NCBI RefSeq assembly: GCF_019139675.1
Contig: NZ_CP077077.1
Coordinates: 3,286,001-3,350,000 of the forward strand
Direction: 5' to 3'
DNA: 64,000 nucleotides
Origin: Pseudomonas maumuensis
GTDB taxonomy: Bacteria > Pseudomonadota > Gammaproteobacteria > Pseudomonadales > Pseudomonadaceae
In this document: in pieces, positions 2,247 through 27,017 of the stretch
Numbering within the stretch: the first letter of the stretch is position 1
Layout: each line of letters begins with the position of its first letter
Program-made: the position numbers and the translations under genes
The notes under the pieces: model-generated
Databases searched by the model: none
Told to the model about the DNA's origin: nothing
What the model saw: only the letters and a program-made list of their open reading frames with translations

Positions 2247-2403
2247 TGTCAGCCTCATGCCTGGGAAAAGGCTAGCCTTGCCCAGGCGCGGGATGGAGTC
2301 AATCAGAGCAGCGCCTGGGAACGTTGCCGATCATGATTCCGGCCCAGGAGCCGCCCGTACCTTCGCGACTTCAAAGCCAAATCCAACACGACAACGAGAA
2401 CAT

Positions 2404-2781: not shown

Positions 2782-2782
2782 G

Positions 2783-3613
2783 TCAGCCGTGCGCCGTCGA
2801 CCAGTCGACCCAACCGAACTCCCAGGTCGCCAGGATCAGCAGGCCAAAGGCGATCCGGTACCAGGCGAACACCGCATAGCTATGGTTGGCGATGAACTTG
2901 AGCAGACCGCGCACGGCAATCATGGCGAAGATGAACGAGACCACGAAGCCGATGGCGAACACTGGCAGGTCACCCGGCTGGAACAGATCACGGTACTTGT
3001 ACCCCGAATACACCGCCGCACCGACCATGGTAGGCATGGCCAGGAAGAACGAAAACTCGGTCGCCGCCTTGCGCGAGAGGCCGAACAGCAAGCCGCCGAT
3101 AATGGTCGAGCCGGAACGCGAGGTGCCCGGAATCATCGCCAGGCACTGCACCAGGCCGATCTTCAGCGCATGAGTCCAACGCATGTCGTCGACATGGTCG
3201 ACCTCCACCCGGTGCTGGCGACGCTCGGCCCACAGCATGATCACCCCGCCCACCACCAACGCGGCGGCAACGGTGATGGGGTTGAACAGATACTCGTGGA
3301 TCAGGTCGGCGAACAGCACGCCCAGGATCACCGCCGGGATGAAGGCGATCAGCAGGTTGGCAGTGAAGCGTCGTGCCGGTACCTGCGTAGGCAAGCCCAG
3401 TACCACGTCGAAGATCTTGCGCCGGAATTCCCACACCACCGCCAGGATGGCACCCAGCTGAATGATGATGTTGAACGCCATGGCGCGTTCGCCGCCGAAG
3501 TCGATCAGGTCAGCGACGATAATCTGGTGCCCGGTGCTCGAAATGGGCAGGAACTCCGTCAGCCCCTCGATCACGCCCAGGATGATCGCCTGAAAGGCAC
3601 TCCACAAATCCAT
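2783..3613 (-). CDS. uppP: Undecaprenyl-diphosphatase UppP/BacA
   Basis: 276 residues, the family length. It dephosphorylates undecaprenyl diphosphate at the inner membrane to recycle the lipid carrier for peptidoglycan, and its overproduction confers bacitracin resistance in other species. Both signature loops are present: [14 protein letters not shown] near residues 16-29 and [15 protein letters not shown] around residue 160. About eight hydrophobic helices follow. It is the first gene of a two-gene unit with the DUF1294 gene. Many pseudomonads have more than one uppP, so this may be one of two copies. Confidence 0.95.
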
Positions 3614-12413: not shown

Positions 12414-14609
12414 GTGAACAACCTGCTCGGTCACCCTCGCGCCCGCCTTGCCAGCCTGGCAATCCTGGTGCTGGTGATACCACTGACCGCGCGCGCGCTG
12501 CTGGGCTGGTCCAACCCCTTCGGCTACCTGTCCGATCTCGCCATTGGCAGCCTGTTGCTCCTGCTCCTGCAGCGGCGCCCCTGGTGGCTGGCCCTGCCGT
12601 TGCTGTTGGCCTGGGGCGGCCTGTGGGTGGCGTCCGCCGAGCTGGTCAGCGCCGTTGGCCGGCTGCCCACGGTCGACGACCTGACCTACCTGATCGACCC
12701 GCAGTTCATGGAGAACTCCACCGGCGGCGGACTGGCCCACGCCTGGCTCCCCGCCCTGCTGGTCGCCGGCATTGGCGCCTGGCTGACGAGCGTATGGCGA
12801 TCGCCAGCCAGCGAGCCGTTGCCACGGCGACTCTGGGCCGTGCCCCTGGCGCTGTTCGGCCTGCACTGGGGCGGCCAGCAGCTGGCCCCTTCGGACGCAG
12901 ACCAATGGCGCCAATACGGCCTCACCCACCAGGTGCTGTCGACGGCGGTGGGCAAGGTCCAGCATCAGGCCTTGAGCCGTATGGGCCGGGTGCCGGCAGT
13001 CACGGCGCTGTCCAGCGCCGGCCTGACCCAGTCCGACCTCAATGGCGTCAAGCTGCTCGACGCCCCGGGCAAGGCGCGCAACCTGCTGATCATCACCGTC
13101 GAGGGCATCCCCGGCGCTTACCTGCGCCCCAACCGCGAGGCACTGGGCAGCCACTACCAGCAGGACCTGATGCCCCGTCTCAGCCAGTGGGCCGAGCGCG
13201 GCATGAACACCCCCGACTATGTCTTGCACACACATCAGACCATTCGCGGCCTGTACGCGATGCTCTGCGGCGACTACGACAAGCTGGCCAACGGCACCCC
13301 CAAGGGCGTGGAGCTGCTGACCCAGCAGCAACGCAACCAGGCCTGCCTGCCGGCCCAGCTGCGCGAGGCCGGCTTCGCCACCCATTATCTGCAAGGCGCC
13401 GGGCTGCGCTTCATGGCCAAGGACCGGATCATGCCGCACATCGGCTTCGACACGGTGCATGGGCTGGAGTGGTTCGCCAACGACAACTACCTGGAATTCC
13501 CCTGGGGCAAGGACGACCGCGCGTTCTTCGAGGGTGCGCTTGACTATGTCGGTGAGCTGCGCAAGCAGCCGCAACCCTGGATGCTCACCCTGCTCACGGT
13601 CGGCACCCATCAGCCCTATTCGGCGCCAGAGGCCTATCTGCAACGCTTCGATACGCCCAAGCAGGCTGCGGTGGCCTACCTCGACGATGCCCTTGGCAGC
13701 TTCCTCGACGGCCTCGAGCGCCAGGGCGTGCTGCAAGACACCCTGGTGATCATCACCTCCGACGAGTCCCACGGCATCGATGGCGTGCGCCTGGCCTCGG
13801 CCTGGGGCTTCAACCTCACGCTCGCACCGGAGCAGGCCCAACTGCCCAGGCTCAAGCAGGGCACCTACGGCCACGTCGACCTGAGCACCTCCCTGCTCGA
13901 TTATTTCGCCCTGCCAATCCCTGCGGCGTTGGCCGGCCGCTCGCTGTACCGCGACTACGACAGTGGCCGCGAGATGATTTCCTACACCAACGGCATGCTG
14001 CGCTACCACGATGGCCAGGGCACCCTCAGCGAGTGCGATTTCCAGCAACGCTGCCGGCGCTATGCCAGCCCCGGTTTCATTGCCGACCAGGCAAAATTCG
14101 TCGGTCGCGGGGACGACAGCCTTGGGGCGCAGATCGGCCTGCTGGCCACCGGCCTCGACCAGTCGTTGCTGCAGACTCCGCTCAACCTGCGCTACCAGTT
14201 CGGCGGTCCCTCCCCCATCGCCCTGGCTGAGCGCATCAAGGATGACTGGGCCGACAACCTGATCGGAGCGCAATACCTGGAGATGCCCGAAGGCACCCGC
14301 ACCCGGGTACGTCTCAAGATACGAGCGCTGGACCCGCGCCACGCCGCGTACATCCGGCTCAAGGCCAAGGAGCTTGAGCAGGATGTGCAGCTTGGCTTGC
14401 CCGAAGAGATTCGGGTAACGGCCGACGAGCCCCTGGAAATGCAGTTCGACTTCGACAACCCCACCGTGCGCAAGGCGTTTTCTTTCCACTTGCTGGGGTA
14501 CGGCGGCGGCGAGGTAGAGGTCAGCGACTTCAGTGTGATCACCGCGCTGCCCGACGAGCCGGAGACGGTGGAGGAATTGGCAGACGGGCATCTTGCCCAG
14601 TCGAGCTGA
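12414..14609 (+). CDS. LTA-synthase-family membrane sulfatase/phosphotransferase
   Basis: 731 residues from a GTG at 12414 (AAGGAAAG upstream). Four or five hydrophobic helices lie in the first ~160 residues, followed by a periplasmic alkaline-phosphatase-fold domain: LLIITVEGIPG (metal site), 'HTHQTIRGLYAMLCGDY' with the likely nucleophile Thr in HQTIRG, 'LTVGTHQPYS' and 'LVIITSDESHGID' with metal-binding Asp/His. Family members transfer phosphoglycerol or phosphoethanolamine to membrane glycans or lipids. A C-terminal extension of about 180 residues of unknown role follows the sulfatase core. It lies between fapF and a biofilm-type regulator, but a link to Fap is inference. Confidence 0.8.
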   Translation: MNNLLGHPRARLASLAILVLVIPLTARALLGWSNPFGYLSDLAIGSLLLLLLQRRPWWLALPLLLAWGGLWVASAELVSAVGRLPTVDDLTYLIDPQFMENSTGGGLAHAWLPALLVAGIGAWLTSVWRSPASEPLPRRLWAVPLALFGLHWGGQQLAPSDADQWRQYGLTHQVLSTAVGKVQHQALSRMGRVPAVTALSSAGLTQSDLNGVKLLDAPGKARNLLIITVEGIPGAYLRPNREALGSHYQQDLMPRLSQWAERGMNTPDYVLHTHQTIRGLYAMLCGDYDKLANGTPKGVELLTQQQRNQACLPAQLREAGFATHYLQGAGLRFMAKDRIMPHIGFDTVHGLEWFANDNYLEFPWGKDDRAFFEGALDYVGELRKQPQPWMLTLLTVGTHQPYSAPEAYLQRFDTPKQAAVAYLDDALGSFLDGLERQGVLQDTLVIITSDESHGIDGVRLASAWGFNLTLAPEQAQLPRLKQGTYGHVDLSTSLLDYFALPIPAALAGRSLYRDYDSGREMISYTNGMLRYHDGQGTLSECDFQQRCRRYASPGFIADQAKFVGRGDDSLGAQIGLLATGLDQSLLQTPLNLRYQFGGPSPIALAERIKDDWADNLIGAQYLEMPEGTRTRVRLKIRALDPRHAAYIRLKAKELEQDVQLGLPEEIRVTADEPLEMQFDFDNPTVRKAFSFHLLGYGGGEVEVSDFSVITALPDEPETVEELADGHLAQSS

Positions 14610-14631
14610 GGCCCCGTGGGACAGTGGTCGA

Positions 14632-15957
14632 TCAGCGAATCTGGTGCTTGTGCAACAACCGATAGAACGTCGGCCGCGACACTCCCAACACCTTGGCCGC
14701 GATGCTCAGGTTGTCACTGTGCCGGTTGAGCACATCACACAATGCCTGGCGCTCGGCGCGGTGCTTATAGTCCTCGAGCGTCCCCAGCGGCTGGTCCTGC
14801 TCCTGCAGTTCCTGTAGCCCCAGGTCCTGGGCCTCGATCTGCCGCCCTTCGGCCAGCACCAGGCCTCGCCTTACCCGGTTGGCCAGTTCGCGCACATTAC
14901 CCGGCCATTCATGCCGCCCCATGGCCGCCAAGGCACCGTCGCTGAACGACCGCGGCCGCCTGCCCGTCTCCGCGCTGTAGAACTGCGAGAAATGGCTGGC
15001 CAGCATCGACAGGTCGCCATGCCGGTCGCGCAGTGGCGCGGTTACCACTTGCAGAACATTGAGGCGGTAGTACAGGTCTTCGCGAAACCGCGCCAACGCA
15101 ATGGCCTTTTCCAGGTCCACATGGGTCGCCGCCAGAACCCTGACGTCAACCGCAATGGGCTGGTTGCCGCCCACCCGCTCGATATGTTTTTCCTGGAGAA
15201 AGCGCAGCAGATTGGCCTGCAGCTCTAACGGCAGATCGCCGATCTCGTCGAGAAACAGAGTACCGCCGTTGGCCGCTTCGATTCGCCCCACCTTGCGCTG
15301 GTGCGCACCCGTGAAGGCGCCCTTTTCATGGCCGAACAGCTCGGACTGGATCAGGTGTTCCGGGATGGCCCCGCAGTTGATGGCAATGAACGGTTTGTCC
15401 CGGCGCTGCGACTGCCGGTGCAAGGTACGCGCCACCAGCTCCTTGCCGGTGCCACTTTCGCCACGGATCAGCACTGGCGACTCGGTGGGCGCCAGCTTGC
15501 CCAGCAACTTGCGCAGCTCGCGGATCGGTCGGCTTTCGCCCAGGAGTTCGTGTTCGGGCTCATCCACCCGCACCGCACCCTTGCCGCGCAGGCGTGCCAT
15601 GCCAAAGGCACGGCCCAGGGTTACCTGCACCCGCGAGACATCGAACGGCAGCGTATGGAAGTCAAAAAACCACTCGCAGACGAAATCACCGACATTCTGC
15701 AGACGCAGTTCCTCGGCGCTGAGCACGGCGATCCACTCGGTATTGCTGCGTTTGATCAGATCCTTGAGCGCTTCGGGATGCAGCAGGTGCGAGGCTTGCA
15801 AGCGCACCAGGCCAACGTCGCAGGGCTGCTCCAGCGCGGCCTCGAGCGTGCAACTTCGTACATCCCAGCCGACACTGCGCAAGCCTGGCAACAGGCGGTG
15901 GCAATCGTCGCAGGGGTCGACGATCAGCAGGCGGCGGTGGGATGCAGGTTCAAGCAT
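14632..15957 (-). CDS. Sigma-54-dependent activator with VpsR/FleQ-like degenerate receiver domain
   Basis: 441 residues. The N-terminal ~130 residues form a receiver-like domain (RRLLIVDPCDDCHRLLPGL) without an obvious phospho-acceptor. The AAA+ core (about 145-375) has the Walker A GESGTGKE, the sigma-54 contact loop GAFTGA, Walker B 'GGTLFLDEIGDLP' and the R-finger region. The C-terminus is a Fis-type helix-turn-helix (LSIAAKVLGVSRPTFYRLL). It should activate RpoN promoters. VpsR and FleQ relatives bind c-di-GMP and control matrix genes, so the position beside fap and the LTA-synthase-like gene fits a surface or biofilm role. AAGGAAAGG precedes the ATG. Confidence 0.88.
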   Translation of the reverse strand: MLEPASHRRLLIVDPCDDCHRLLPGLRSVGWDVRSCTLEAALEQPCDVGLVRLQASHLLHPEALKDLIKRSNTEWIAVLSAEELRLQNVGDFVCEWFFDFHTLPFDVSRVQVTLGRAFGMARLRGKGAVRVDEPEHELLGESRPIRELRKLLGKLAPTESPVLIRGESGTGKELVARTLHRQSQRRDKPFIAINCGAIPEHLIQSELFGHEKGAFTGAHQRKVGRIEAANGGTLFLDEIGDLPLELQANLLRFLQEKHIERVGGNQPIAVDVRVLAATHVDLEKAIALARFREDLYYRLNVLQVVTAPLRDRHGDLSMLASHFSQFYSAETGRRPRSFSDGALAAMGRHEWPGNVRELANRVRRGLVLAEGRQIEAQDLGLQELQEQDQPLGTLEDYKHRAERQALCDVLNRHSDNLSIAAKVLGVSRPTFYRLLHKHQIR

Positions 15958-16291
15958 GACCTTTCCTTGGCGCCAGTTATTGGTTTTTTACCTATAAACA
16001 GTCAGTTGCGACGCCCGAATTAACAGTAGCAATGAACTTGACGCCCCCCACTACCGTTGGTCAGCCCGCCACTGTCGCTGCTGCCCAGGCCAGGAATTTT
16101 CCCAGTCAAAACTCGTCTTAGGCGCGAAGGGAATGCATAAAAAAATGCCGTCGATTTAAAAAAATTCAACGTCCCTGTGACTTGACCACTGACTTGGAGC
16201 ATCAGTACGGATAACCCCGCGCTGTAACGTATTCGGAAATAACACCGCGGAACATTATTTCGCTGTTTGGGACCATGAGAGAGACCGAACC
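15958..16291. other. Intergenic region with a 7-12-7 palindrome
   Basis: 334 bases between divergent genes, AT-richer than the genes (an A-run-rich stretch at 16136-16168). A pseudo-palindrome at 16236-16261 has perfect outer arms GAAATAA / TTATTTC around a CCGCGG-centred core, 30 bases before the start of the small downstream gene, and is a candidate operator. No convincing gene is present. Confidence 0.35.
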
Positions 16292-16558
16292 ATGAACGCC
16301 CCGCTCCGTGTCAACGAAGCACTGCTGATCGCCGACCACGCCTTCGAACCCTTCCAGTGCGTAGCCTGGGATGCACCCAACGGTACTGGTGAACTGAGCC
16401 TGGCAGTGATCGACCGGACCAGCACTCGTATCGGCAGTAAACAAGTGTCCTCGCGCGTCTATTCCGACCCTGCGCAATGGGCCAGCCTGATCGAGGAAGT
16501 GCGCGCCGAACTGTCCGGCAAAGGTTACGACCTGCAACCCTGGTCGATGCCGAAGTAA
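16292..16558 (+). CDS. Small conserved protein of unknown function
   Basis: 88 residues, soluble, mildly acidic, with no signal peptide or membrane segment. GAGAGA lies before the ATG. The sequence (MNAPLRVNEALLIADHAFEP, then ELSLAVIDRTSTRIG and VYSDPAQWASLIEEVRAEL) reads like a genuine compact alpha/beta protein, and I have a vague memory of similar Pseudomonas-specific hypotheticals. I do not recognise a domain. It is flanked by an activator gene (divergent) and the cobaltochelatase genes (convergent). Confidence 0.65.
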   Translation: MNAPLRVNEALLIADHAFEPFQCVAWDAPNGTGELSLAVIDRTSTRIGSKQVSSRVYSDPAQWASLIEEVRAELSGKGYDLQPWSMPK

Positions 16559-16662
16559 GCGAGATTGCCTATTGCAAGTGCGTGGCCGCCACGCACTTGG
16601 GCAACTTTCCCCGAAGACGGGTAGAACTTTTTCAATTGCGACATCTTGTCGCAGCCACATGC

Positions 16663-18326
16663 TTAATTCGTCACTGCGAACTGCTCGATATGCCGATAAT
16701 CGGCATGCAGTTGTTCGGCAAGTTGCCGTGCGCGGCCCACACGTACCGCTGCCGTTTCCATATCCACCAACAGTGTGCTGCACGGCAATGGCTGCAAGTG
16801 CTCCCTGTGTTGCAGGCGACCATCGGTCAGCACCAGGCAGCGCTGGGTTTCCTGGGGAAAGCGCTTACCCCGCACCAGCAGCCAGTGGCGCGCCTCCTCC
16901 AACGCCGCCAGCAGCGGCGTGCCGCCGCCGGCCCCCAGCGCCTGCAACCAAGGCTGCAACGCCGCCGAGGCCTTCAGGCCATGCCGTTGCCATTGCGGCT
17001 TGTCGCCACTGGCCGTGAGCAAGGCCAGACGTGCGCGCTGCCGGTAGGCCTCATCGAACAATCCAGCCAGCAGGCCCTTGGCCTGGGCCAGCGCCTGGTT
17101 GCGTCGGGTGGACGCCGATGCGTCGACGATCACCAGCCAAAGCTCCGGCGCCTGGGCCTGACGCAATTGCCAGCACAGCTCGCGACGCAGGCGCGGACGC
17201 CCCTTGAGCAAGGTCGGCAGCCAGGCGATACGGCCAGTCTCGGCCGCACGCGGACGACCCCGGATACTACCTGTCAAATTGCCGGCACGGGGTTTGGCAT
17301 CCGCCGCCTGGGCATGGCGCGAGCGGATGCTCAGGGCTTTTTTGCCCAGTTCGGTACCTCGCGGCGTACGCCCGTCGCCACTGGCTGAGGCGGCAACGCG
17401 CCCCAGTCGCCCTGCCCACCTTGCGCTTGCGGCAGTTGAGGTGGCTCACCCGCCGCCGCCTGCGGTTGCGGCGCCTGGGTGCGACGGCGATGGCGCAAGG
17501 CGAACTCGGCGACCGCCTCCACATCCGCCTCTTCGATCACCGCGTTACCGCGCCAAGCGGCGTGGGCCCGCGCCGCACGCAGCCAGACCAGGTCGGCACG
17601 CATACCGTCCACCCCGGCGGCAAAGCAACGCTCGGTGATCCAGGCCAGAGCCTGGTCGTCCAGGGCGATCGACGCCAACTGCTCACGCGCGGCCTGGCAA
17701 CGCTGGCGCAGCGCGGCCTGCTGAGGCGCCCACTGGGTACAGAACGTCTGCGGGTCACTGTCGAACGCCAGCCGGCGGCGGATGATCTGCTGGCGCGCTT
17801 CAGGCGCGGGCAGGCCCTCGAGGGCCACGTTCAGGCCAAAGCGATCGAGCAGTTGCGGACGCAGTTCACCCTCTTCCGGATTCATGGTGCCGATCAGTAC
17901 GAAACGGGCGGCATGGCGATGGGAAATGCCATCGCGCTCGATACGGTTGGTGCCGCTGGCAGCCACGTCCAGCAGCAGGTCCACCAAGGGGTCAGGCAGC
18001 AGGTTGACTTCGTCCACGTACAGTACGCCGCCATCGGCATGGGCCAGCACACCCGGCGAGAACCGCGCCTGGCCCTGGCCCAGAGCGGCATCCAGGTCGA
18101 GGGTGCCGACCAGGCGCTCTTCGGTCGCCCCAAGGGGCAGGGTCACGAATGGACCGCCGCCCAGCAGGTCGGCCAGCCCCCGCGCCAGGGTGCTCTTGGC
18201 CATGCCCCGCGGGCCCTCGATCAGCACGCCGCCGATCTTCGGATCGATTGCCGTCAGGCACAGGGCCAGCTTGAGGTCGTCGGCGCCGACCACGGCAGCC
18301 AGGGGGAATTGTACGGGTTCGCTCAT
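16663..18326 (-). CDS. chlD: ChlID-like cobaltochelatase medium subunit made by -1 frameshift (AAA+ plus VWA)
   Basis: Proposed full product: the 0-frame AAA+ part (18326 to 17337) joined by a -1 shift on A-AAA-AAG (17343-17337) to a second frame that stays open to 16663, giving about 555 residues. The linker after the shift (ALSIRSRHAQAADAKPRA) and the VWA domain follow, with the MIDAS motif LVIVDASASTRRN, 'GGGTPLLAALEEAR' and 'QRCLVLTDGRL'. This is the AAA-linker-VWA layout of ChlD/CobT-type medium subunits, which partner the small AAA+ subunit and CobN to insert Co2+ into hydrogenobyrinate a,c-diamide. The only start near the VWA frame without a frameshift is a weak TTG at 17277, which would drop the conserved linker. 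I infer the shift from sequence only. Confidence 0.75.
17297..17360 (-). promoter_or_regulatory. Programmed -1 ribosomal frameshift signal in chlID
   Basis: Read on the minus strand: GAGG (17360-17357, a Shine-Dalgarno-like stimulator), 13 bases, slippery heptamer A-AAA-AAG in the correct 0-frame phase (17343-17337), a 6-base spacer that completes the CCC TGA stop codon, then a stem-loop with a perfect 8-bp stem GCATCCGC / GCGGATGC (17330-17323 with 17304-17297) and an inner CGCC/GGCG pairing. This has all the elements of the E. coli dnaX signal, in the same order and at similar spacing. Confidence 0.85.
17331..18326 (-). CDS. chlI: ChlI-like AAA+ subunit of cobaltochelatase (0-frame product)
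   Basis: 331 residues from the ATG at 18326, which lies 2 bases after the cobN stop. The magnesium-chelatase-type AAA+ features are: Walker A-like GPRGMAKSTLARGLADLL (about 36-53), 'GATEERLVGTLDL', Walker B 'GGVLYVDEVNLLPD', sensor 'VLIGTMNPEEGELRPQLLDRF'-type segment and the C-terminal helical lid. A Pro/Gln-rich tail ends in WAKKP at the frameshift site. It would act as the motor ring (CobS/ChlI role) for cobalt insertion with CobN. No separate chlI or cobS gene is in the window. Confidence 0.85.
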   Translation of the reverse strand: MSEPVQFPLAAVVGADDLKLALCLTAIDPKIGGVLIEGPRGMAKSTLARGLADLLGGGPFVTLPLGATEERLVGTLDLDAALGQGQARFSPGVLAHADGGVLYVDEVNLLPDPLVDLLLDVAASGTNRIERDGISHRHAARFVLIGTMNPEEGELRPQLLDRFGLNVALEGLPAPEARQQIIRRRLAFDSDPQTFCTQWAPQQAALRQRCQAAREQLASIALDDQALAWITERCFAAGVDGMRADLVWLRAARAHAAWRGNAVIEEADVEAVAEFALRHRRRTQAPQPQAAAGEPPQLPQAQGGQGDWGALPPQPVATGVRREVPNWAKKP

Positions 18327-18328
18327 GT

Positions 18329-21300
18329 TCAGCTGTCTTCCTCGCCGGCGAGCAACTGCTGCTCGAGGCTCTCGCGATAGTCGCCCGGCTCCTGCCACAA
18401 CCCGCGCTGCTGGGCTTCCAGCAAACGCTCGGTAAGGTCGCGCAGGGCTTCGGGGTTGTGCTCGCGCATGAAATCACGGGTGGCCGGGTCGAGCACATAG
18501 GCGTCGGCCAGGCCCTGGTAATGATGGTCGTCGATCAGGTGGGTGGTGGCGTCGAAGGCGAACAGATTGTCGACCGTCGCCGCCAGCTCGAATGCACCTT
18601 TATAGCCATGGCGCTTGGCGCCGTCGATCCATTTCGGATTGAGCGCGCGGGCACGAATCACTCGGTTGAGCTCTTCCTTCAGGGTCCGCACCCGCGGCCG
18701 GTCGGCCTGGCTGTGATCGCCGTGGTAGCTGGCCCGCGCGGTGCCGGCCAGGGTTTCGGCTGCCGCCAGCATGCCGCCCTGGAACTGGTAGTAGTCGTTG
18801 GAGTCGAGCAGGTCGTGCTCGTGGTTGTCCTGGTTCTGCAGCACGGCCTGCACCTGCGCCAGGCGCTGGGCGAACGCGGCGCGGGCCGGCGTGCCTTCGT
18901 CGCTGGCGCCGTAGGCGTAGCCACCGTGGTTGAGGTAGACCTCGGCCAGGTCGTCACGGCTGTGCCACAGGCGCCCGTCGATGGCGTTCTGCACGCCGGC
19001 GCCATACGCCCCCGGCTTGGCCCCGAACACCCGCCAGCCGGCCTGCCGCGCCGCCTGCTCCAGCTCCATGCCGGCGCCGAGCAACGCTTCACGGTCGGCG
19101 CGCACCCGAGCGGCCAGGGGGTTCAGGTCGTCCGGCTCGTCCAGCGCGGCCACCGCCTGCACGGCGGCGTCGAACAGGCGGATCAGGTTGCCGAAGGCGT
19201 CGCGGAAGAAACCCGACACGCGCAGCGTCACATCCACTCGCGGCCGGTCGAGCAGGCTCAATGGCAGGATCTCGAAGTCGTCGACCCGCTGGCTGCCGGT
19301 GGCCCACACCGGGCGCACACCCATCAGCGCCAGGGCCTGGGCGATGTCGTCGCCGCCGGTGCGCATGGTCGCCGTGCCCCACACCGACAGGCCCAGCTGA
19401 CGCAAGTGGTCGCCGTGGTCCTGCAGGTGGCGCTCGAGGATCAGGTTGGCCGAGGCAAACCCCAGGCGCCACGCCGTGGTGGTCGGCAGGTTGCGCACAT
19501 CGACGGTGTAGAAGTTGCGCCCGGTGGGCAGTACGTCCAGGCGGCCACGGCTGGGGGCGCCACTGGGCCCGGCCGGGACGAAATGCCCGGCCAGTGCGGC
19601 CAGCAGGCCGTCGATCTCGGCGGCGCCACAGGCGTCCAGGTCCGGTGCGATCCGTTCGACCAGCGCCTGCAAGACCTCGCGCACCGGTGCCCAGCCGTCT
19701 TCATCCGGCAACGCCGCAGCCCCTTGCAATACCTGCTCGATCAATGTCAGCGCGAGGCACTCCAGACGCTCACGGGTATCACCACAGGTACGCCATGCGC
19801 TGTTGTCGAGCTGCAGCAGCAGGTCCGGTCGCGGCCCGTCCCAGGCCTGCCCCAGGTCGCAGTCCAACGGATCGAAGCCCAACGCCAAGGCCTTGGCCAG
19901 CACGCGAATCAGGCTGGCGTTACCGCCCTTGCCATCTCCCCGCGCCACCCGCACCAGGGCCAGCAGCGTGTCGCTGCGCAGACGCCCCTGGGGCGACTGG
20001 CCGAATACGTGCAAGCCATCACGGATCTGCGACTCCTTGAGGTCGCACAGATAGGTGTCCAGGCGCGGCAACCACACTGCGGCGTCCTCCAACTGCCCCT
20101 CAAGCTGCAGTTCACGGTCGATGTGGTTGGCCTTGACCAGTGCGAGGATGTCGCGCTGCAACTCGTTGGCGCGACGTGGATCGAGCAGCTGCGCTTCGTA
20201 GTACTCGTCGGCCAGCTGTTCCAGGTGGCGCAGCGGGCCGTAGGTCTCGGCGCGGGTCAAGGGCGGCATCAGGTGGTCGATGATCACCGCCTGGGTGCGG
20301 CGCTTGGCCTGGGCGCCCTCGCCCGGATCGTTGACGATGAACGGATAGATGTTGGGCAACGGCCCGAGCAACGCGTCCGGCCAGCATTCGGCGGACAACC
20401 CCACGCCCTTGCCCGGCAGCCATTCCAGGTTGCCGTGCTTGCCGACATGGATCAACGCATCGGCGGCGTAGCCGTTGCGCAACCAGAAGTGAAACGCCAG
20501 GTAGCCGTGCGGCGGCACCAGGTCCGGGTCGTGATACACGGCGCTGTGGTCCACCTGGTAGCCCCGCGCCGGCTGGATGCCGACGAAGGTCAGGCCGTAG
20601 CGCAGGCCAGCGACCATCATGCGCCCACTGCGAAACATCGGATCCTGCTCGGGCGGCCCCCAACGCTCCAGCACGGCGCGCTGGTTGGCCTCGGGCAACG
20701 CGGCGAAGGCGCTGTGGTAGTCGGCCAGAGCCAGGCTCTGGGCGCAAGGGCGCTGGTCAAGGTGATCGAGGTCGTTGGTAACACCGCCGAGCAACTGGTG
20801 GATCAACTCGGTGCCGCTGTCGGGCAGGCCGGCTACCGGGTAACCCTGCGCCTGCAGGGCCTTGAGGATGTTCAACGCCGCGCCTGGGGTGTCGAGGCCG
20901 ACACCATTGCCGATGCGCCCGTCACGGGTCGGGTAGTTGGCCAGCACCAGGGCCACGCGCTTCTCCTGGTTGTCCAGGCGCGCCAGTGTCACCCAGCGCC
21001 GCGCCAGTTCAGCGACGAAATCCATGCGTTCGGGGTGAGCGCGGTAGCAGACCACGTCGGACTGGCTGCGCTCGCTGCGCCAGGCCAGGTCCTTGAAGCT
21101 CACCGGTCGGGTGATGATGCGCCCGTCCAGCTCGGGCAAGGCGATGTGCATCGCCAGGTCGCGGGCGCCGAGGCCCTGCTCGCTCTGCTCCCAGCCGGGC
21201 TGGTTGTCCTGGGCGCAGATCGCCTGCAACACCGGCACGTCGCGACGCAGCGGACGCAGATTGGGCTGTTCGGGGCTGGACAGGGCGAAGCCGGTGGTGT

Positions 21301-22090
21301 TGATCACCACCTCCGCCTGCACTTCGTCGAGCCAAGCCTCGACCTGGTCCAGGCAGGCGCGCTCCTTGAGGCTGGCCACGGCGATCGGTAACGGATTCAA
21401 GCCGCAAGCCTGCAGGCGCTGGCAGAACACATCGATGAACGCGGTGTTGGCTGCCTGCAGGTGGGAGCGGTAGAACAACAGCGGCGCCACCGGATACTCC
21501 GGATGCCACTCGGCGTACCAGTCCTCGAGCCGTGCGCTGGCCTTGGCCGGGTGATAGACCACCGTGCGCGGCAATGGCTGCGGCTCGTCCCAGGGGTAGG
21601 CGCGCCCCAGCCACTGGCTGGCCAGGCAGTTGAACAGGTTCAGTGCATTGGCCTTGCCGCCCTGGCGCAGGTAATGCCAGAGGCGCTCGGCCTGTTCGCC
21701 GCGTACCGTGCCCAGCCCGGTCAGCTCCGGGTCGGGGCGGTCGTCGCCGGGCACCAGGATCAGTTGCACGCCCCGTGCCGCCAGCTCGACCAGTTGTTCG
21801 ACACCGTAGCGCCAATAACCGACGCCGCCATGCAGCGACACCAGGATCACCTTGGCATGGCGCAGCACCTGGTCGACATACAGGTCGACCGAGGCGTGGT
21901 TCTGCACCTGCATCGGGTTGGCCAGGCGTACGCTGGGAAAATCCGCCGGCAACTGCTCGGCGGTTTCGGCGAGCAGCGCCAGGTGTGAATCACCGCTGCA
22001 GAGGATCACCAGCTCGGCAGGAGTCTGGCCGAGGTCGGCGATGCTGTCGTCCGGCACGAAGCCGCCGGGCTGGGTCCGCAGCAGGTGCAT
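18329..22090 (-). CDS. cobN: Cobaltochelatase large subunit CobN
   Basis: 1253 residues, the family size. It contains the CobN/BchH-type order: N-terminal Rossmann-like part (ELVILCSGDSHLALLAE, VILVSLHGGVGYW), the central 'NYPTRDGRIGNGVGLDTP' region, 'HVGKHGNLEWLPGKGVGLS' and the C-terminal 'GVRPVWATGSQRVDDFEILP' and 'DVTLRVSGFFRDAFGN' segments. It binds hydrogenobyrinate a,c-diamide and Co2+ in the cytoplasm and works with the AAA+ subunits encoded immediately downstream. It is the second gene of cobW-cobN-chlID, with 3 bases after cobW. Confidence 0.97.
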   Translation of the reverse strand: MHLLRTQPGGFVPDDSIADLGQTPAELVILCSGDSHLALLAETAEQLPADFPSVRLANPMQVQNHASVDLYVDQVLRHAKVILVSLHGGVGYWRYGVEQLVELAARGVQLILVPGDDRPDPELTGLGTVRGEQAERLWHYLRQGGKANALNLFNCLASQWLGRAYPWDEPQPLPRTVVYHPAKASARLEDWYAEWHPEYPVAPLLFYRSHLQAANTAFIDVFCQRLQACGLNPLPIAVASLKERACLDQVEAWLDEVQAEVVINTTGFALSSPEQPNLRPLRRDVPVLQAICAQDNQPGWEQSEQGLGARDLAMHIALPELDGRIITRPVSFKDLAWRSERSQSDVVCYRAHPERMDFVAELARRWVTLARLDNQEKRVALVLANYPTRDGRIGNGVGLDTPGAALNILKALQAQGYPVAGLPDSGTELIHQLLGGVTNDLDHLDQRPCAQSLALADYHSAFAALPEANQRAVLERWGPPEQDPMFRSGRMMVAGLRYGLTFVGIQPARGYQVDHSAVYHDPDLVPPHGYLAFHFWLRNGYAADALIHVGKHGNLEWLPGKGVGLSAECWPDALLGPLPNIYPFIVNDPGEGAQAKRRTQAVIIDHLMPPLTRAETYGPLRHLEQLADEYYEAQLLDPRRANELQRDILALVKANHIDRELQLEGQLEDAAVWLPRLDTYLCDLKESQIRDGLHVFGQSPQGRLRSDTLLALVRVARGDGKGGNASLIRVLAKALALGFDPLDCDLGQAWDGPRPDLLLQLDNSAWRTCGDTRERLECLALTLIEQVLQGAAALPDEDGWAPVREVLQALVERIAPDLDACGAAEIDGLLAALAGHFVPAGPSGAPSRGRLDVLPTGRNFYTVDVRNLPTTTAWRLGFASANLILERHLQDHGDHLRQLGLSVWGTATMRTGGDDIAQALALMGVRPVWATGSQRVDDFEILPLSLLDRPRVDVTLRVSGFFRDAFGNLIRLFDAAVQAVAALDEPDDLNPLAARVRADREALLGAGMELEQAARQAGWRVFGAKPGAYGAGVQNAIDGRLWHSRDDLAEVYLNHGGYAYGASDEGTPARAAFAQRLAQVQAVLQNQDNHEHDLLDSNDYYQFQGGMLAAAETLAGTARASYHGDHSQADRPRVRTLKEELNRVIRARALNPKWIDGAKRHGYKGAFELAATVDNLFAFDATTHLIDDHHYQGLADAYVLDPATRDFMREHNPEALRDLTERLLEAQQRGLWQEPGDYRESLEQQLLAGEEDS

Positions 22091-22093
22091 GGG

Positions 22094-23161
22094 TCAGGCG
22101 CCCAGGGCCTGGCGCAGGCGCGCCTCCAGCTGGGTCGCGTCCAGGTCCTGGCCGATCAGCACCAGGCGGGTGATCCGTGGCTCCTCGCTGCGCCATGCAC
22201 GGTCGAAATGCTTGTCGAAGCGGGTGCCCACACCCTGGATCAGCAGGCGCATCGGCTTGCCGGGAATAGCGGCGAAGCCCTTGGCGCGCAGGATGCCGAA
22301 CTCGGTGACCAGTTGCGTCAAGGCATCGAGCAGCAGGCTCTCGTCAGCCTCGGGCAGGTCGATGGAGATCGAGTCGAAGGCGTCGTGGTCATGGTCGTCA
22401 TGATCGTCGCCGTCGTGATGGCTGTCGTGGTGGGTGCGGCGACCATCGATATGCGCCTCGGACTCGGCGCCCACGCCCAGCAGCACCTCCAGCGGCAGGC
22501 GACCACTGCTGGCCTCGATCACCTTGACCGCCGGCGGCAGTTCCTCGGCCACTTCGGCACGGACCTTGGCCAGGCCCTCGGCATCGATCAGGTCAGCTTT
22601 GTTCAGTACCACCAGGTCGGCGCTGGCCAACTGGTCGGCGAACAGTTCGTGCAGCGGCGACTCGTGATCGAGGTTGGGATCGAGCTTGCGCTGGGCATCG
22701 ACCTGGTCTGGGTAGGCGGCAAAGGTGCCAGTGGCCACGGCCGGGCTGTCGACCACGGTAATCACCGCGTCGACGGTGCAGGCGTTGCGGATCTCCGGCC
22801 ACTGGAAAGCCTGCACCAAGGGTTTGGGCAGTGCCAGGCCGCTGGTTTCGATAAGGATATGGTCGAGGTCGCCACGGCGGGCCACCAGTTCGCGCATCAC
22901 CGGGAAAAACTCTTCCTGCACGGTGCAGCACAGGCAGCCATTGGCCAGCTCGTAGACGCGACCGTTGGCCTCCTCCTCGGTGCAGCCGATGCTGCACTGC
23001 TTGAGGATTTCGCCATCGATGCCCAGCTCGCCGAATTCGTTGACGATCACCGCGATGCGGCGGCCCTGGGCATTGTCGAGCATATGGCGCAGCAAGGTGG
23101 TCTTGCCCGAGCCGAGGAAGCCGGTAACGATGGTGACGGGAAGCTTGGCCAGTGTTTTCAT
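22094..23161 (-). CDS. cobW: CobW GTPase, cobalt metallochaperone for cobalamin synthesis
   Basis: 355 residues from the ATG at 23161; the frame is open further upstream, but that part lies in the riboswitch leader. The P-loop GFLGSGKTTLLRH is near residue 14, the metal-binding motif in 'NGCLCCTVQ' (CxCC) follows, then 'SGLALPKPL' and the NKAD guanine motif (VVLNKADLI). A His/Asp-rich loop (THHDSHHDGDDHDDHDHD) precedes the C-terminal CobW domain. COG0523 GTPases deliver metal; CobW is known to supply Co2+ for the aerobic pathway. It heads the leftward operon behind a cobalamin riboswitch. Confidence 0.95.
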   Translation of the reverse strand: MKTLAKLPVTIVTGFLGSGKTTLLRHMLDNAQGRRIAVIVNEFGELGIDGEILKQCSIGCTEEEANGRVYELANGCLCCTVQEEFFPVMRELVARRGDLDHILIETSGLALPKPLVQAFQWPEIRNACTVDAVITVVDSPAVATGTFAAYPDQVDAQRKLDPNLDHESPLHELFADQLASADLVVLNKADLIDAEGLAKVRAEVAEELPPAVKVIEASSGRLPLEVLLGVGAESEAHIDGRRTHHDSHHDGDDHDDHDHDAFDSISIDLPEADESLLLDALTQLVTEFGILRAKGFAAIPGKPMRLLIQGVGTRFDKHFDRAWRSEEPRITRLVLIGQDLDATQLEARLRQALGA

Positions 23162-23271
23162 GTCGCGATGCCCTTGGCAGCAATGGCGCGGGCATGCAGG
23201 ACGACAGCCACGGCCCGTGTCGGCCTGGCTGTTTCGCCACCGGATCACCCCGCCCGGTTGAAAGTCGAAAA

Positions 23272-23445
23272 CGTTGCGAGGCAGGTCTCCTGGCTTGCAC
23301 CGCCGGCCATCAAAGCCAGTGGGATGGCGCCTTCCCGCGCGTGCGCAGTGGCTGTGCCGAACCCTTCAGTGCCTACAGTTGCGGGGGCAGCCGCGGCTTG
23401 TACCGCGTTCCCGTCTTAGCCCGGGACAACGCCCGGGAACCTCGA
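23272..23445 (-). ncRNA. Cobalamin riboswitch for cobW-cobN-chlID
   Basis: On the minus strand, in order: CGGGAACGCGGT; GCTGCCCCCGCAACTGTA; GCCACTG; GGGAAGGC; and the B12 box AAGCCAGGAGACCTGCC (about 23298-23281). These are the conserved core pieces of the AdoCbl aptamer. It lies about 110 bases before the cobW ATG, leaving room for the kissing-loop partner and a ribosome-binding-site or terminator platform. High cobalamin should shut off the leftward chelatase operon. Confidence 0.92.
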
Positions 23446-23534
23446 ACCGGCAAGGCTACGCAGTGCCTGCCTGGCGGTCAACCGCCGCGGCGATTGACGC
23501 AGCACCGGCCCCGTGATTTGCTAGCGCATTGCAT

Positions 23535-23732
23535 TCAGGTGCCCCCAATGGGGGTGAAACGGGAAACCGGTGCGTCGCGCCTCCTTCACAGGGCCGACAA
23601 GGCCGGTGCTGCCCCCGCAACGGTAAGCGAGAGAAGCGTCCAGACCACTGTGCCCGTCGTGCGGCATGGGAAGGTGACGTTTGATCGATGGAGCCCCACT
23701 CCACCTCGCCAGCCCGGAGACCGGCCTGACAT
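23535..23732 (+). ncRNA. Cobalamin riboswitch for cbtB-cbtA-cobE-cobM
   Basis: On the plus strand, in order: ACGGGAAACCGGTGC; GCTGCCCCCGCAACGGTAA; CCACTGTGCC; GGGAAGGTGAC; and the B12 box GCCAGCCCGGAGACCGGCC (23708-23726). It precedes the cbtB start by about 110 bases. It is independent of the minus-strand copy; the two aptamers lie back to back with their 5' ends about 90 bases apart. Confidence 0.92.
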
Positions 23733-23842
23733 GCTTGCAGAACACCCCGCGGTGGGCGGGCGCTGTCGTATCACCTGGGTCAGTCGTGCCCGGGACGTCG
23801 CGCCTGCCCGTTGCCACAACAAAAGCAGCAGAGGAACGCGTC

Positions 23843-24028
23843 ATGCCCATCACCCATGCCAAACCCAGTATCGCCACTCCCGTAAGCCTCAGCCAGCGAC
23901 TGATCGTCGCGGTCGGCGCCAGCCTGCTGGGCCTGTGCCTGGTGTACTTCGCCGGTTTCTCGCACATCGAGGCGGTACACAACGCCGCCCACGACACCCG
24001 CCACAGCGCCGCCTTCCCTTGCCACTGA
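23843..24028 (+). CDS. cbtB: CbtB, small subunit of cobalamin-regulated cobalt transporter
   Basis: 61 residues with one membrane helix (about 18-38, VAVGASLLGLCLVYFAGF) and a His-rich C-terminus (HIEAVHNAAHDTRHSAAFPCH region, six His), as in CbtB proteins. GAGG lies 8 bases before the ATG. Known only from comparative genomics as a predicted cobalt importer component paired with CbtA and placed under B12 riboswitches, as here. Confidence 0.92.
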   Translation: MPITHAKPSIATPVSLSQRLIVAVGASLLGLCLVYFAGFSHIEAVHNAAHDTRHSAAFPCH

Positions 24029-24038
24029 GTACCCCCGC

Positions 24039-24728
24039 ATGATCACGCGCATCGCTCGCACCGCTGGCTTCAGCGGCCTGCTCGCCGCTCTGCTGCTGAC
24101 CCTGCTGCAAAGCTTCTGGGTCGCACCGCTGATTCTCCAGGCGGAAACCTATGAAACCGCCGCCCCCGCCGCCGAACACCACGAACATGGCGAGGCCGCC
24201 GCGCCTCATGAACACAGCGCCGAAGCCTGGGCGCCCGAAGATGGCTGGCAACGCATCCTGTCGACCACGGGCGGCAACCTGGTGGTCGCCGTCGGTTTCG
24301 CCTTGATCCTCGCCGCCTTGTACAGCCTGCGCGAACCTGGTCGCGTTAGCACCGGCGCACTGTGGGGCCTGGCGGGCTTCGCCGTGTTCTGCCTGGCGCC
24401 GACCCTGGGCCTGCCCCCGGAACTGCCTGGCACCGCCGCCGCCGACCTCGGCCAGCGCCAGACCTGGTGGATCGGCACCGCCGCCGCCACCGCCACCGGC
24501 CTGGCGCTGCTGGTATTCGCCCAGCACTGGCTGTTCAAGGTGCTGGGTGTCGCCCTGCTGGTGATCCCGCATCTGATCGGCGCACCACAGCCAGCGGTTC
24601 ATGAAAGCCTGGCCCCCGAAGCGCTGGAGACCCAGTTCAAGATCGCTTCGTGGCTGACCAACGCCGCGTTCTGGCTGGCCTTGGGCCTGCTCAGCGCCTG
24701 GTTGTTCCGCCGCTCCAGCCAGCACTGA
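24039..24728 (+). CDS. cbtA: CbtA, membrane subunit of cobalamin-regulated cobalt transporter
   Basis: 229 residues with about five or six membrane helices (first at 10-30, LLAALLLTLLQSFWVAPLIL). A His-rich loop (EHHEHGEAAAPHEHSAEA) lies between helices 1 and 2 and could bind Co2+. 'TLGLPPELPG' and 'RQTWWIGTAAATATG' match CbtA. It follows cbtB by 10 bases, and its stop overlaps the cobE start (TGATG). Expected role: Co2+ entry across the inner membrane for the chelatase. Confidence 0.93.
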   Translation: MITRIARTAGFSGLLAALLLTLLQSFWVAPLILQAETYETAAPAAEHHEHGEAAAPHEHSAEAWAPEDGWQRILSTTGGNLVVAVGFALILAALYSLREPGRVSTGALWGLAGFAVFCLAPTLGLPPELPGTAAADLGQRQTWWIGTAAATATGLALLVFAQHWLFKVLGVALLVIPHLIGAPQPAVHESLAPEALETQFKIASWLTNAAFWLALGLLSAWLFRRSSQH

Positions 24729-25138
24729 TGCGCGACCTCGCTCCCCAGCCGGCGTTGTATGCCGGCTTTGGTTGCCGCCGTGGCTGCCCGGTCGAAACGC
24801 TCGCGGTGCTGCTGCGCCAGACCCTGACCCACCACGCCCTGCCTCTGTCGGCACTGAAGGCCATCGCCAGCATCGAACCCAAGGCGCGCGAACCGGGCCT
24901 GCTAGCGCTGGCCGAGCGGCTCGGGCTGCCATTCATCTGCTTCGACAGCAGCCACTTGTCGAGCTTCGAGGCCCTGCTCAGCCAGCGCTCGGCGACCGTA
25001 TACGCGCAGACGGGCTGCTGGGGCGTCGCCGAAAGCGCGGCCCTGGCCCTGGCCGGGCGCACAGGCGCCACGCCGCGCCTGCATGTACCAAGGCAAGGGC
25101 TCGGCGGCGCTACCCTGGCCCTGGCCATGGGTGGATAA
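24728..25138 (+). CDS. cobE: CobE, CbiG C-terminal-domain protein of the aerobic cobalamin pathway
   Basis: 136 residues. The motif 'YAGFGCRRGCPVETLAVLL' near the N-terminus and 'IASIEPKAREPGLLALAERL' are the CobE/CbiG_C signature. Start ATG at 24728 overlaps the cbtA stop by one base. CobE is required in Pseudomonas for cobalamin synthesis and is linked to handling of precorrin intermediates around CobM, but its exact reaction is not settled. cobM follows by 28 bases. Confidence 0.9.
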   Translation: MRDLAPQPALYAGFGCRRGCPVETLAVLLRQTLTHHALPLSALKAIASIEPKAREPGLLALAERLGLPFICFDSSHLSSFEALLSQRSATVYAQTGCWGVAESAALALAGRTGATPRLHVPRQGLGGATLALAMGG

Positions 25139-25166
25139 TCCGCCCCTTTACCTGCAAGGAACCCCC

Positions 25167-25919
25167 ATGACGGTCTATTTCATCGGTGCCGGCCCCGGCG
25201 ATCCGGAGCTGATCACGGTCAAAGGCCAGCGCCTGATCCACCAATGCCCGGTGATCATCTACGCAGGCTCGCTGGTACCGGCTGCGGTGCTCGAGGGTCA
25301 TCAGGCGCATACCGTGATCAACAGCGCTGAGCTGCACCTGGAGCAGATCATCGAGGCCATGCGCCAGGCCCATGCCAACGGCCAGAACGTCGCCCGTGTA
25401 CACAGCGGCGACCCCAGTCTGTATGGCGCCATCGGCGAACAGATCCGCCATCTGCGTGAGCTGGCCATCGATTACCAGATCATCCCCGGCGTGACCGCCA
25501 CCGCCGCCAGCGCCGCGCTGCTGGGTTGCGAGCTGACACTGCCCGACGTGGCGCAGACAGTGATTCTCACCCGCTACGGTGACAGCTCGCCGATGCCAGC
25601 CGGTGAGCAACTGGCCGACCTGGCCCGCCATGGCAGCACCCTGGCTATCCACCTGGGCGTGCGTCATCTGCCGCGGATTGTCGAGCAGCTGTTGCCGCAT
25701 TATGGCGCCGACTGCCCGGTCGCCGTGGTCCATCGCGCCACCTGGCCAGACCAGGACTGGGTCAAGGGCACCCTGGCGGACATCGCCGAGCGCGCAGCTG
25801 CCAAGGGCTTCCGGCGTACCGCGCTGATCCTCGTCGGCCATGTCCTGGGCGATGCCCCCTTCGCCGATTCGGCCCTGTACCGCGCCGGCCACGCCCACCT
25901 CTATCGCCCCGGCCCATGA
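25167..25919 (+). CDS. cobM: Precorrin-4 C11-methyltransferase CobM
   Basis: 250 residues from the ATG at 25167 (AAGGA upstream). It is a class III SAM methyltransferase of the tetrapyrrole family: glycine-rich start 'VYFIGAGPGDPELITVKG', 'VARVHSGDPSLYGAIGEQ', 'YQIIPGVTATAASAALLG' and 'TLAIHLGVRHL'. It methylates precorrin-4 at C11 to give precorrin-5 in the aerobic pathway. It is the last clear cob gene of the rightward operon. Confidence 0.95.
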   Translation: MTVYFIGAGPGDPELITVKGQRLIHQCPVIIYAGSLVPAAVLEGHQAHTVINSAELHLEQIIEAMRQAHANGQNVARVHSGDPSLYGAIGEQIRHLRELAIDYQIIPGVTATAASAALLGCELTLPDVAQTVILTRYGDSSPMPAGEQLADLARHGSTLAIHLGVRHLPRIVEQLLPHYGADCPVAVVHRATWPDQDWVKGTLADIAERAAAKGFRRTALILVGHVLGDAPFADSALYRAGHAHLYRPGP

Positions 25920-25983
25920 AGCGATTGCCGAGCGGGTGACGGCGGAGCACACTGGGCCTTCCAACTGGATGGAAACCCCGACC

Positions 25984-26226
25984 ATGCTCGACCTGCGCCC
26001 CAACTGCGAATGCTGCGACACCGACCTGCCTCCCGAAAGCACGGACGCGCTGATCTGCTCGTTCGAATGCACCTTCTGCCGTGCCTGCAACGTGCGCCAC
26101 TTTCATGACCGCTGCCCGAACTGCGGCGGTCAACTGGTGACGCGCCCCACTCGCGTCGGCAAGGTGCTGGCGAACAACCCGGCCTCCACGCAGCGGGTAA
26201 TCAAACCCCACGCTCCCTGCGCCTGA
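25984..26226 (+). CDS. DUF1272 small zinc-ribbon-like protein
   Basis: 80 residues from the ATG at 25984; another in-frame ATG is at 25969. Eight or more Cys form likely metal sites: NCECCDTDLP, 'CSFECTFCRACN' and 'DRCPNCGGQL', matching DUF1272. The N-terminus MLDLRPNCECC is the family's usual start. Function is unknown; it is probably a small Zn-binding cytoplasmic protein. It sits 64 bases after cobM and may be read through from that operon. Confidence 0.85.
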   Translation: MLDLRPNCECCDTDLPPESTDALICSFECTFCRACNVRHFHDRCPNCGGQLVTRPTRVGKVLANNPASTQRVIKPHAPCA

Positions 26227-26235
26227 ATCCGACTT

Positions 26236-26250
26236 GTAGGAATTTTCTAC
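26236..26250. promoter_or_regulatory. Candidate BvgA/EvgA-type operator
   Basis: 15-bp pseudo-palindrome GTAGGAATTTTCTAC, perfect except for one G-T position, 150 bases upstream of a BvgA-like response regulator. It resembles two inverted TTTCCTA-type heptamers recognised by BvgA. This would suggest autoregulation. Inference only. Confidence 0.35.
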
Positions 26251-26399
26251 ATATTGGTACTGGATTTTCAACACACCTATACTCGCCTATTACCAAGGAT
26301 CCTGAATGTCCGTAAGGTGCGCGCTGCCCAGCAAGTCCGCAGCCCAGTACCTTGAATGCAAGGCTGAAAACGGGCTGCACTTTGACAGGAGTTACCTGA

Positions 26400-27014
26400 A
26401 TGACATCCGTGCTGTTGGTCGATGACCACCACATTGTGCGACTCGCCGTACGCATGCTGCTCGAACGCGAACGCTTCACCGTCGTAGGGGAAACCGGTAA
26501 AGGCAAAGAGGCCGCCCGCCTGGCCGAGCAGACCAAGGCAGACGTAGTCATCCTCGACATCGGCCTGCCTGACCTCGACGGCATGGAGGTGATCAAGCGC
26601 CTCAAACTGATCGAGCCTCCTCCGCGGATCATGGCCCTCACCGGGCAGCCCGCCGACCTTTACGTGCGCCGCTGCATGGACGCCGGCATCTCGGCGTTCG
26701 TCAACAAGGACGAAGACCTCGATGCCCTGCTCTTCGCCCTCAAGGCACTGGTCAAAGGCTACTCGACGTTTCCGCAGATGGCAGTCAACAGCAACACCCT
26801 GGAAAGCGAGACCGAACGCCTGGCACTGCTGTCCAACCGCGAAATGGAAGTGCTGCGCCGGCTCAGTGCCGGCCAGAGCAACAAGCTGATCGGTGAGCAG
26901 ATGAACCTCAGTGCCAAGACCATCAGCACCTATCGCGGCCGGATCATGGAAAAGCTCAAGGTCGAGTCGTTGGTGGAAATGGTCGACCTGGCCAAACGCA
27001 ACCACGTGGCATGA
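26400..27014 (+). CDS. NarL/FixJ-family response regulator, BvgA/EvgA-like
   Basis: 204 residues. Receiver domain 1-120 with the acidic pocket (LLVDDHH), phospho-acceptor Asp in 'VVILDIGLPDLDG' (about residue 52) and Lys in 'FVNKDEDLD'. The C-terminal LuxR-type helix-turn-helix (145-200) has 'LSNREMEVLRRLSAGQSNKL' and 'LSAKTISTYRGRIMEKL'. ACAGGAG precedes the ATG. It is followed after 3 bases by its hybrid sensor kinase, so the two form one two-component operon. Confidence 0.9.
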   Translation: MTSVLLVDDHHIVRLAVRMLLERERFTVVGETGKGKEAARLAEQTKADVVILDIGLPDLDGMEVIKRLKLIEPPPRIMALTGQPADLYVRRCMDAGISAFVNKDEDLDALLFALKALVKGYSTFPQMAVNSNTLESETERLALLSNREMEVLRRLSAGQSNKLIGEQMNLSAKTISTYRGRIMEKLKVESLVEMVDLAKRNHVA

Positions 27015-27017
27015 ATC

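Follow-up and report, generated by a model that had tools for sequence, protein, structure and literature searches.

A 64,000-nucleotide stretch of the Pseudomonas maumuensis genome, hereafter the window, carries a gene of the aerobic cobalamin pathway that is, judging from its sequence, very probably a frameshifted chlD (fs-chlD), in which a programmed -1 frameshift would yield both the small and the medium subunit of cobaltochelatase. The AAA+ and VWA frames, in that order, stand in a -1 relation. The original prediction that one locus gives both subunits in this way gains support from a heptamer, a phase, a nearby stop codon and a hairpin that have been kept, and this conserved signal very probably directs a working programmed frameshift. 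Frameshifting in this gene has already been described for Pseudomonas, since 2013, and the locus is not new. The weight of the case lies in conservation across the genus; the heptamer alone is not rare, and the stem in the window is only modestly unusual.

Results

Organization of the locus

The features of the locus, in the order in which they are transcribed, are as follows.

23263..23459, minus strand: cobalamin riboswitch, 5' of cobW-cobN-chlD (Rfam RF00174, 111.8 bits)
22094..23161, minus strand: cobW-type gene, 5' of cobN (Pfam cobW and CobW_C)
18329..22090, minus strand: cobN, cobaltochelatase large subunit, immediately 5' of the AAA+ frame (TIGR02257, 1731.6 bits, above cut-off)
17331..18326, minus strand: AAA+ ATPase (ChlI-like small subunit), unshifted frame of 331 aa, from ATG 18326 to TGA 17333-17331
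17357..17360, minus strand: SD-like GAGG, 13 nt 5' of the heptamer, not conserved in the genus
17337..17343, minus strand: slippery heptamer A-AAA-AAG, in frame, with the phase GCA AAA AAG CCC TGA
17297..17330, minus strand: downstream hairpin with an 8-bp outer stem, beginning 6 nt 3' of the heptamer
16663..17337, minus strand: -1 frame after the slip, linker and VWA domain, 224 codons and a stop

The coordinates of the cobW-type gene are counted from an ATG, a start codon of our choosing, and Pfam was run on a translation two codons longer. That cobN lies directly upstream of the AAA+ frame had been predicted and is correct. A second cobalamin riboswitch (23521-23743, plus strand) stands back to back with the one at 23263-23459 and precedes a divergent set of genes for cobalt transport (CbtB and CbtA) and cobalamin synthesis (CbiG_C and a tetrapyrrole methylase). 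Besides these two riboswitches, an Rfam scan of 14000-30000 returned nothing at gathering score; two weak matches in 17200-17450 fell under their gathering scores and were taken as chance. No tandem repeats were found around the frameshift site.

The TGA was predicted to lie two codons past the heptamer, which is accurate only if the stop itself is counted, as one codon (CCC) intervenes. After the slip, the -1 frame reads GCC CTG AGC ATC and so on, and it stays open through the linker and VWA domain until the stop ending at 16663, as had been claimed.

The unshifted product matches Pfam AAA_lid_2, AAA_5 and Mg_chelatase, and its closest solved structures by sequence are the ChlI/BchI chains 8osf, 6l8d and 1g8p (E 4e-81 to 9e-78). 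Its score against the BchI-ChlI equivalog TIGR02030 is 325.5 bits, under the cut-off of 466.95, and by this model it is a ChlI-like relative, not a member. It also scores under the cut-offs of the NCBIfam cobaltochelatase models. The product of the -1 frame contains Pfam VWA_2 and carries the letters DASAS, which we take to be a MIDAS-type motif. The shifted fusion of AAA+, linker and VWA would be a ChlD-like medium subunit of 554 aa, for which the top model is TIGR02442, putative cobaltochelatase (466.5 bits, under the cut-off of 779.45). Because these scores fall under the cut-offs, curated models do not certify the ChlI-like and ChlD-like products beside cobN.

It had been anticipated that the locus would be annotated as two ordinary genes, and the best database entries indeed list separate AAA+ and vWA proteins. 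Among the best 120 matches listed for the AAA+ part, in a search whose scoring was limited to the 7997 candidates with the most words in common, 113 are AAA+ only (328-344 aa) and 7 have 488-559 aa. For the VWA part, the 120 best entries are all separate proteins of 182-253 aa, in a search admitting only entries 0.55-1.75 times the query length. Four of the long entries (P0123, P0146, P0160 and P0168), read by eye, reach the -1 frame via a change of frame 5' of the site; P0122 combines such an upstream change with an A run that looks shorter, and in P0124 and P0125 the third frame is read across the site. Judging from the protein letters alone, we did not accept these seven as natural in-frame fusions at the site. 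Since the halves are listed as two proteins, the medium subunit stands without its AAA+ half in the best-matching database entries.

Conservation of the slippery site across the genus

The heptamer by itself is common, occurring four times on both strands of the 64-kb window versus 1.8 expected. We detected the AAA+ protein in 374 of 398 genus genomes (E 1e-60). Four of the genomes without the protein were taken to be G332, G336, G378 and G405, the sole ones missing from the search result. The site pattern AAAAAAGCNNNRRGCATYC is present in 347 of the 398 genomes, and a reversed control pattern in 4 (counted by eye in the table). Apart from the sites that were read, these counts are per genome, taken from the table, and a match may fall elsewhere than in the gene; this happened once, in G407, which has another match near its cobN.

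In all 24 of the same-genus loci that were read first (23 relatives and the window), A6G has the phase needed for the shift and the VWA frame stands at -1. The stop of the AAA+ frame lies 3 nt past the heptamer in 23 of them and 21 nt past it in one. This last locus (L017, genome G006) has lost the stop adjacent to the heptamer (CCC CAG), and its frame ends 21 nt later, within the hairpin; a further genome (G083) shows these letters too where it matches the pattern.

A total of 73 distinct sites were read base by base. A6G in the -1 phase was used to locate them and was present at all 75 candidate sites tried, genomes known to be without A6G having already been excluded. The stop lies 3 nt past the heptamer in 70 sites, 0 nt in 2 and 21 nt in 1. 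Left out of this set were a pattern match outside the gene (L050), altered heptamers (L076, L081, L094 and L095), loci at contig ends (L089 and L097), loci with the AAA+ part cut or broken (L090 and L096, the genome of the latter being represented by L052), sites identical to L007 and L016 (L053 and L057, respectively), other families of the order (L025 and L026) and other matches (L027-L037).

We fetched the 27 genomes in which the AAA+ protein was found and the pattern was not, together with three others. Of these 27, 21 retain A6G and the -1 phase with altered flanks or an altered stem, including two with TAA directly after the heptamer and three divergent loci at ~60% identity. Another two stop at contig edges (G089 and G296), and in four the heptamer is altered and the -1 relation broken. 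Among the last four, the AAA+ protein is matched in two pieces in G093 and three in G047, and in neither does the VWA part stand at -1. G065 lacks one A, and the matches to its VWA part are spread over two frames. In G228, one A fewer than in the near relative L015 is the only visible change, and the VWA part is then at +1. We suspect homopolymer assembly errors or decay in these four genomes, and G228 could be a true loss of the site. Alignment across Pseudomonas, which had been proposed as a check, shows the heptamer, stem and phase to be kept, and loss of the heptamer or stem while the frames still need a shift occurs at most in G228.

Elsewhere in the genes of the 73 sites, AAG accounts for 467 of 702 Lys codons and AAA for the other 235, CCA is used for 260 of 2202 Pro codons, and 9.2% of all codons end in A. 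The codon preceding AAA AAG ends in A at every one of the 73 sites, which were chosen for A6G. Because AAG dominates among Lys codons and so few codons end in A, NNA-AAA-AAG is an unusual codon choice.

A conserved hairpin downstream of the heptamer

A perfect 8-bp stem starting 6 nt past the heptamer had been predicted and is confirmed: GCATCCGC (17330-17323) pairs with GCGGATGC (17304-17297). Relative to dinucleotide shuffles of 91 nt its z-score is -1.72, and relative to synonymous recodings, 11 of 300 of which fold as well, it is -1.91. By itself, the hairpin in the window is modestly unusual and makes a moderate case.

Across the 73 sites, the first helix of at least four pairs begins 5 nt past the heptamer in 44, 6 nt past it in 21 and elsewhere in 8, such that 65 of 73 have a hairpin at 5-6 nt. 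When stability was compared with recodings that keep the amino acids of the -1 frame, the mean z-score was -2.28 and 45 of the 73 sites fell below -2, while seven control offsets gave means of -0.13 to 0.43. In an alignment of the stem (73 rows, 70 distinct), 81.1% of cells are paired versus 35-50% with the partner slid by 1-3 columns. The covariation score is 0.164, whereas slid alignments give 0.079-0.116 and none of 500 shuffles reaches the observed value. Two-sided changes occur in 43 cells; shuffles give 17 (0 of 500 reach 43) and slid alignments 15-32. They affect 11 of 13 pairs, versus 6 in shuffles (0 of 500) and 6-10 when slid, a weak measure because it barely exceeds the slid controls. 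The number of stem pair types is reached by 6 of 500 shuffles. All of these covariation measures are inflated by related rows. The clearest covarying pair is formed by columns 24/49, with 31 C-G, 20 U-A, 6 U-G and 13 other combinations. At 17 of the 73 sites, which have stems of different length or sequence, at most 6 of the 8 outer pairs form; folded singly, these 17 still form hairpins around the site.

The original prediction also included a GAGG stimulator, which is present 13 nt upstream of the heptamer in the window (duplex of -7.3 kcal/mol) but is not conserved. GAGG, GGAG or AGGA occurs in only 14 of the 73 sites, and a duplex at or below -6 in 17. We therefore rejected an SD-like stimulator as a conserved part of the signal. 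Because the SD-like element is not general, the stem is the conserved candidate stimulator across the genus.

Alternatives to a ribosomal frameshift

We considered whether the locus could be two ordinary overlapping genes without any fusion, the VWA protein being started on its own or by re-initiation after the AAA+ stop. A TTG is available at 17277, the first ATG/GTG/TTG candidate start of the -1 frame, and the separate VWA proteins of the database agree with such an arrangement. A possible start also lies 5' of the slip, within the open stretch of the -1 frame, at 39 of the 73 sites, and only 3 of 73 have no ATG, GTG or TTG at all from the upstream -1 stop to codon 60. However, at 50 of 73 sites none of these codons appears among the first 32 post-slip codons of the -1 frame, a stretch in which only 4 sites have a start with an SD-like duplex. 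Nine sites have an ATG between 10 codons ahead of the slip and 60 codons past it. The positions of starts vary, and in three loci (L003, L014 and L041) no start follows the slip until codon 66-68, where the VWA domain begins. A separate gene would also leave the kept heptamer, hairpin and phase unexplained. The case against a separate start is one of non-conservation and not impossibility, because 39 sites have an upstream start and only 3 have none, and we consider this explanation very unlikely.

Transcriptional slippage at the A6 run would produce a mixed mRNA population encoding the fusion without a ribosomal shift. All 73 sites have the run of at least six A that this would use, although six A is short for polymerase slippage. 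Moreover, G follows the run at every site, in the single phase that gives a tandem-slip heptamer (the sites having been picked for A6G). Slippage would need neither that exact phase nor the hairpin, whereas a ribosomal shift would make use of a hairpin at 5-6 nt. We consider transcriptional slippage very unlikely as the source of the fusion. The chance that a sequencing error or a decaying gene accounts for the frame break is negligible, for although four genus genomes have damaged sites and a few fused Pseudomonas entries stem from frame changes near the site, the identical break, phase and place recur in the 73 genomes read and the 347 with the pattern, and the domains are intact in both frames.

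Subunit genes accompanying the frameshift gene

All 374 genomes in which the AAA+ protein was detected have a CobN match (E 1e-60), and all 16 genomes without a CobN match are also without the AAA+ protein. CobN is above the model cut-off in 371 of the 398 genomes. Eight genomes have a CobN match and no AAA+ match; seven of these matches are weak (E 1e-63 to 1e-86), and one is full-length at a contig edge (G285).

The claim that the window has no separate small-subunit gene extends to the organism's own genome, where no CobS match was found and no second ChlI-like gene beyond weak matches (the next at 27.6 bits). A CobS-like match at E 1e-40 is absent from 364 of the 374 genomes bearing the AAA+ protein and present in 10. 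Overall, 17 of the 398 genomes have a CobS-like gene, none above the model cut-off. Ten of the 17 carry the frameshift gene and all 10 retain the site pattern, which indicates that a missing alternative small subunit is not what maintains the site. The other seven (G054, G055, G073, G198, G234, G254 and G272) are without the frameshift gene and have a CobS-like gene at 487-503 bits, under the cut-off. At E 1e-60, CobN is unmatched in three of them (G054, G055 and G234), and the remaining four have weak CobN matches only. Since CobN is absent or weak there, the CobS-like protein of these seven genomes may do something else.

In another family of the order, one genome (G030; L026, about 1207-3016) has an in-frame ChlD of ~600 aa without the A6G site. 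It has a full CobN, only weak ChlI matches elsewhere and a CobS-like match of 114 bits, and it counts against a simple need-based account of the two products. In a second genome of the same order (G025, L025), the VWA part is at -1 following a run of nine A and G. One further locus (L071; G189:C1:2217545-2222287) has cobN and the AAA+ part both in one open frame of 1582 aa, which suggests that CobN is fused to ChlI there, with a normal frameshift site following.

Discussion

The frames, heptamer, hairpin, conservation and synteny are observed at the locus, as is the lack of another clear small-subunit gene in the genome. From these we infer that the slip occurs in this strain with some efficiency and that the subunits assemble. 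Part of the ribosomes would stay in the AAA+ frame and end at the TGA just past A-AAA-AAG, giving the small ChlI-like subunit. The hairpin 5-6 nt downstream would hold up the P- and A-site tRNA-Lys(UUU) at the heptamer, where the pair would re-pair one base back and continue in the -1 frame to give the 554-aa AAA+/linker/VWA medium subunit. Together with CobN, the small and medium subunits would form the cobaltochelatase that inserts cobalt, and a single gene would fix the small:medium ratio. All 51 tRNA-Lys matches in 26 genomes carry the anticodon UUU, in a pattern search that allowed CUU, had one match confirmed by ARAGORN and would miss a tRNA-Lys(CUU) of another backbone. Tandem slippage is favoured because both Lys codons would be read by tRNA-Lys(UUU).

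Frameshifting in chlD genes had been presented in the original prediction as a known principle, which is right but understated, as Pseudomonas itself was named in 2013 and 2016 and P. aeruginosa in 2022. Passages of Antonov 2013 (PMC3711429) describe a magnesium-chelatase cluster of 23 genes with -1 frameshifts, name Pseudomonas among six genera and state that such genes are annotated as two genes. Three cassettes of the family shift 63, 40 and 10% in E. coli; those passages describe them by runs of 11, 9 and 7 A and leave a Pseudomonas origin unstated. Excerpts of Atkins 2016 (PMC5009743) name Pseudomonas, place A_AAA_AAR under purifying selection, suggest a triplex and print a P. protegens stem with the same outer letters, GCATCCGC/GCGGATGC. 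According to portions of Kuznetsov 2022 (PMC9227772), frameshifting lets fs-chlD produce the small and medium subunits, and a table lists P. aeruginosa. A review on archaea (PMC8211752) repeats the 2013 result.

Our locus shares with the fs-chlD or "magnesium chelatase" cluster its gene, genus, A_AAA_AAR, -1 direction, AAA+/VWA split and role with cobN, and it differs in nothing essential. With A6G, it may shift less than the published cassettes with longer runs. Antonov reportedly gave a further account of frameshifted chlD in 2020. The genus-wide count, covariation test and SD survey appear in none of the passages drawn from the 2013, 2016 and 2022 papers, and the 2020 account may hold some of them.

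Pairs of chlI and chlD or of cobS and cobT supply the same two kinds of subunit in the same enzyme class, but from two genes and with no shift; the genome studied here is without CobS or a clear second ChlI-like gene. E. coli dnaX resembles our locus in its A-AAA-AAG, in a hairpin a few nt downstream and in encoding two components of a single complex in one gene. A dnaX-type signal has three parts, with the SD-like element about 10-14 nt upstream, and dnaX uses tandem slippage. In contrast to dnaX with its upstream SD-like stimulator, the chlD sites of the genus are mostly without one, and the shift gives a shorter product in dnaX whereas it gives the longer product in chlD.

It is quite unlikely that the shift rate is regulated, with the hairpin or a triplex on it responding to cobalt, magnesium or corrin. 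If true, the small:medium ratio would follow metal or B12 supply, atop the riboswitch of the operon. The genus-wide counts show that a B12 enzyme gene of Pseudomonas retains its frameshift signal while the best-matching database entries split it in two. The natural variants of the stem offer a large set for gauging the effects of structure, spacing and SD-like elements on -1 shifting within one genus.
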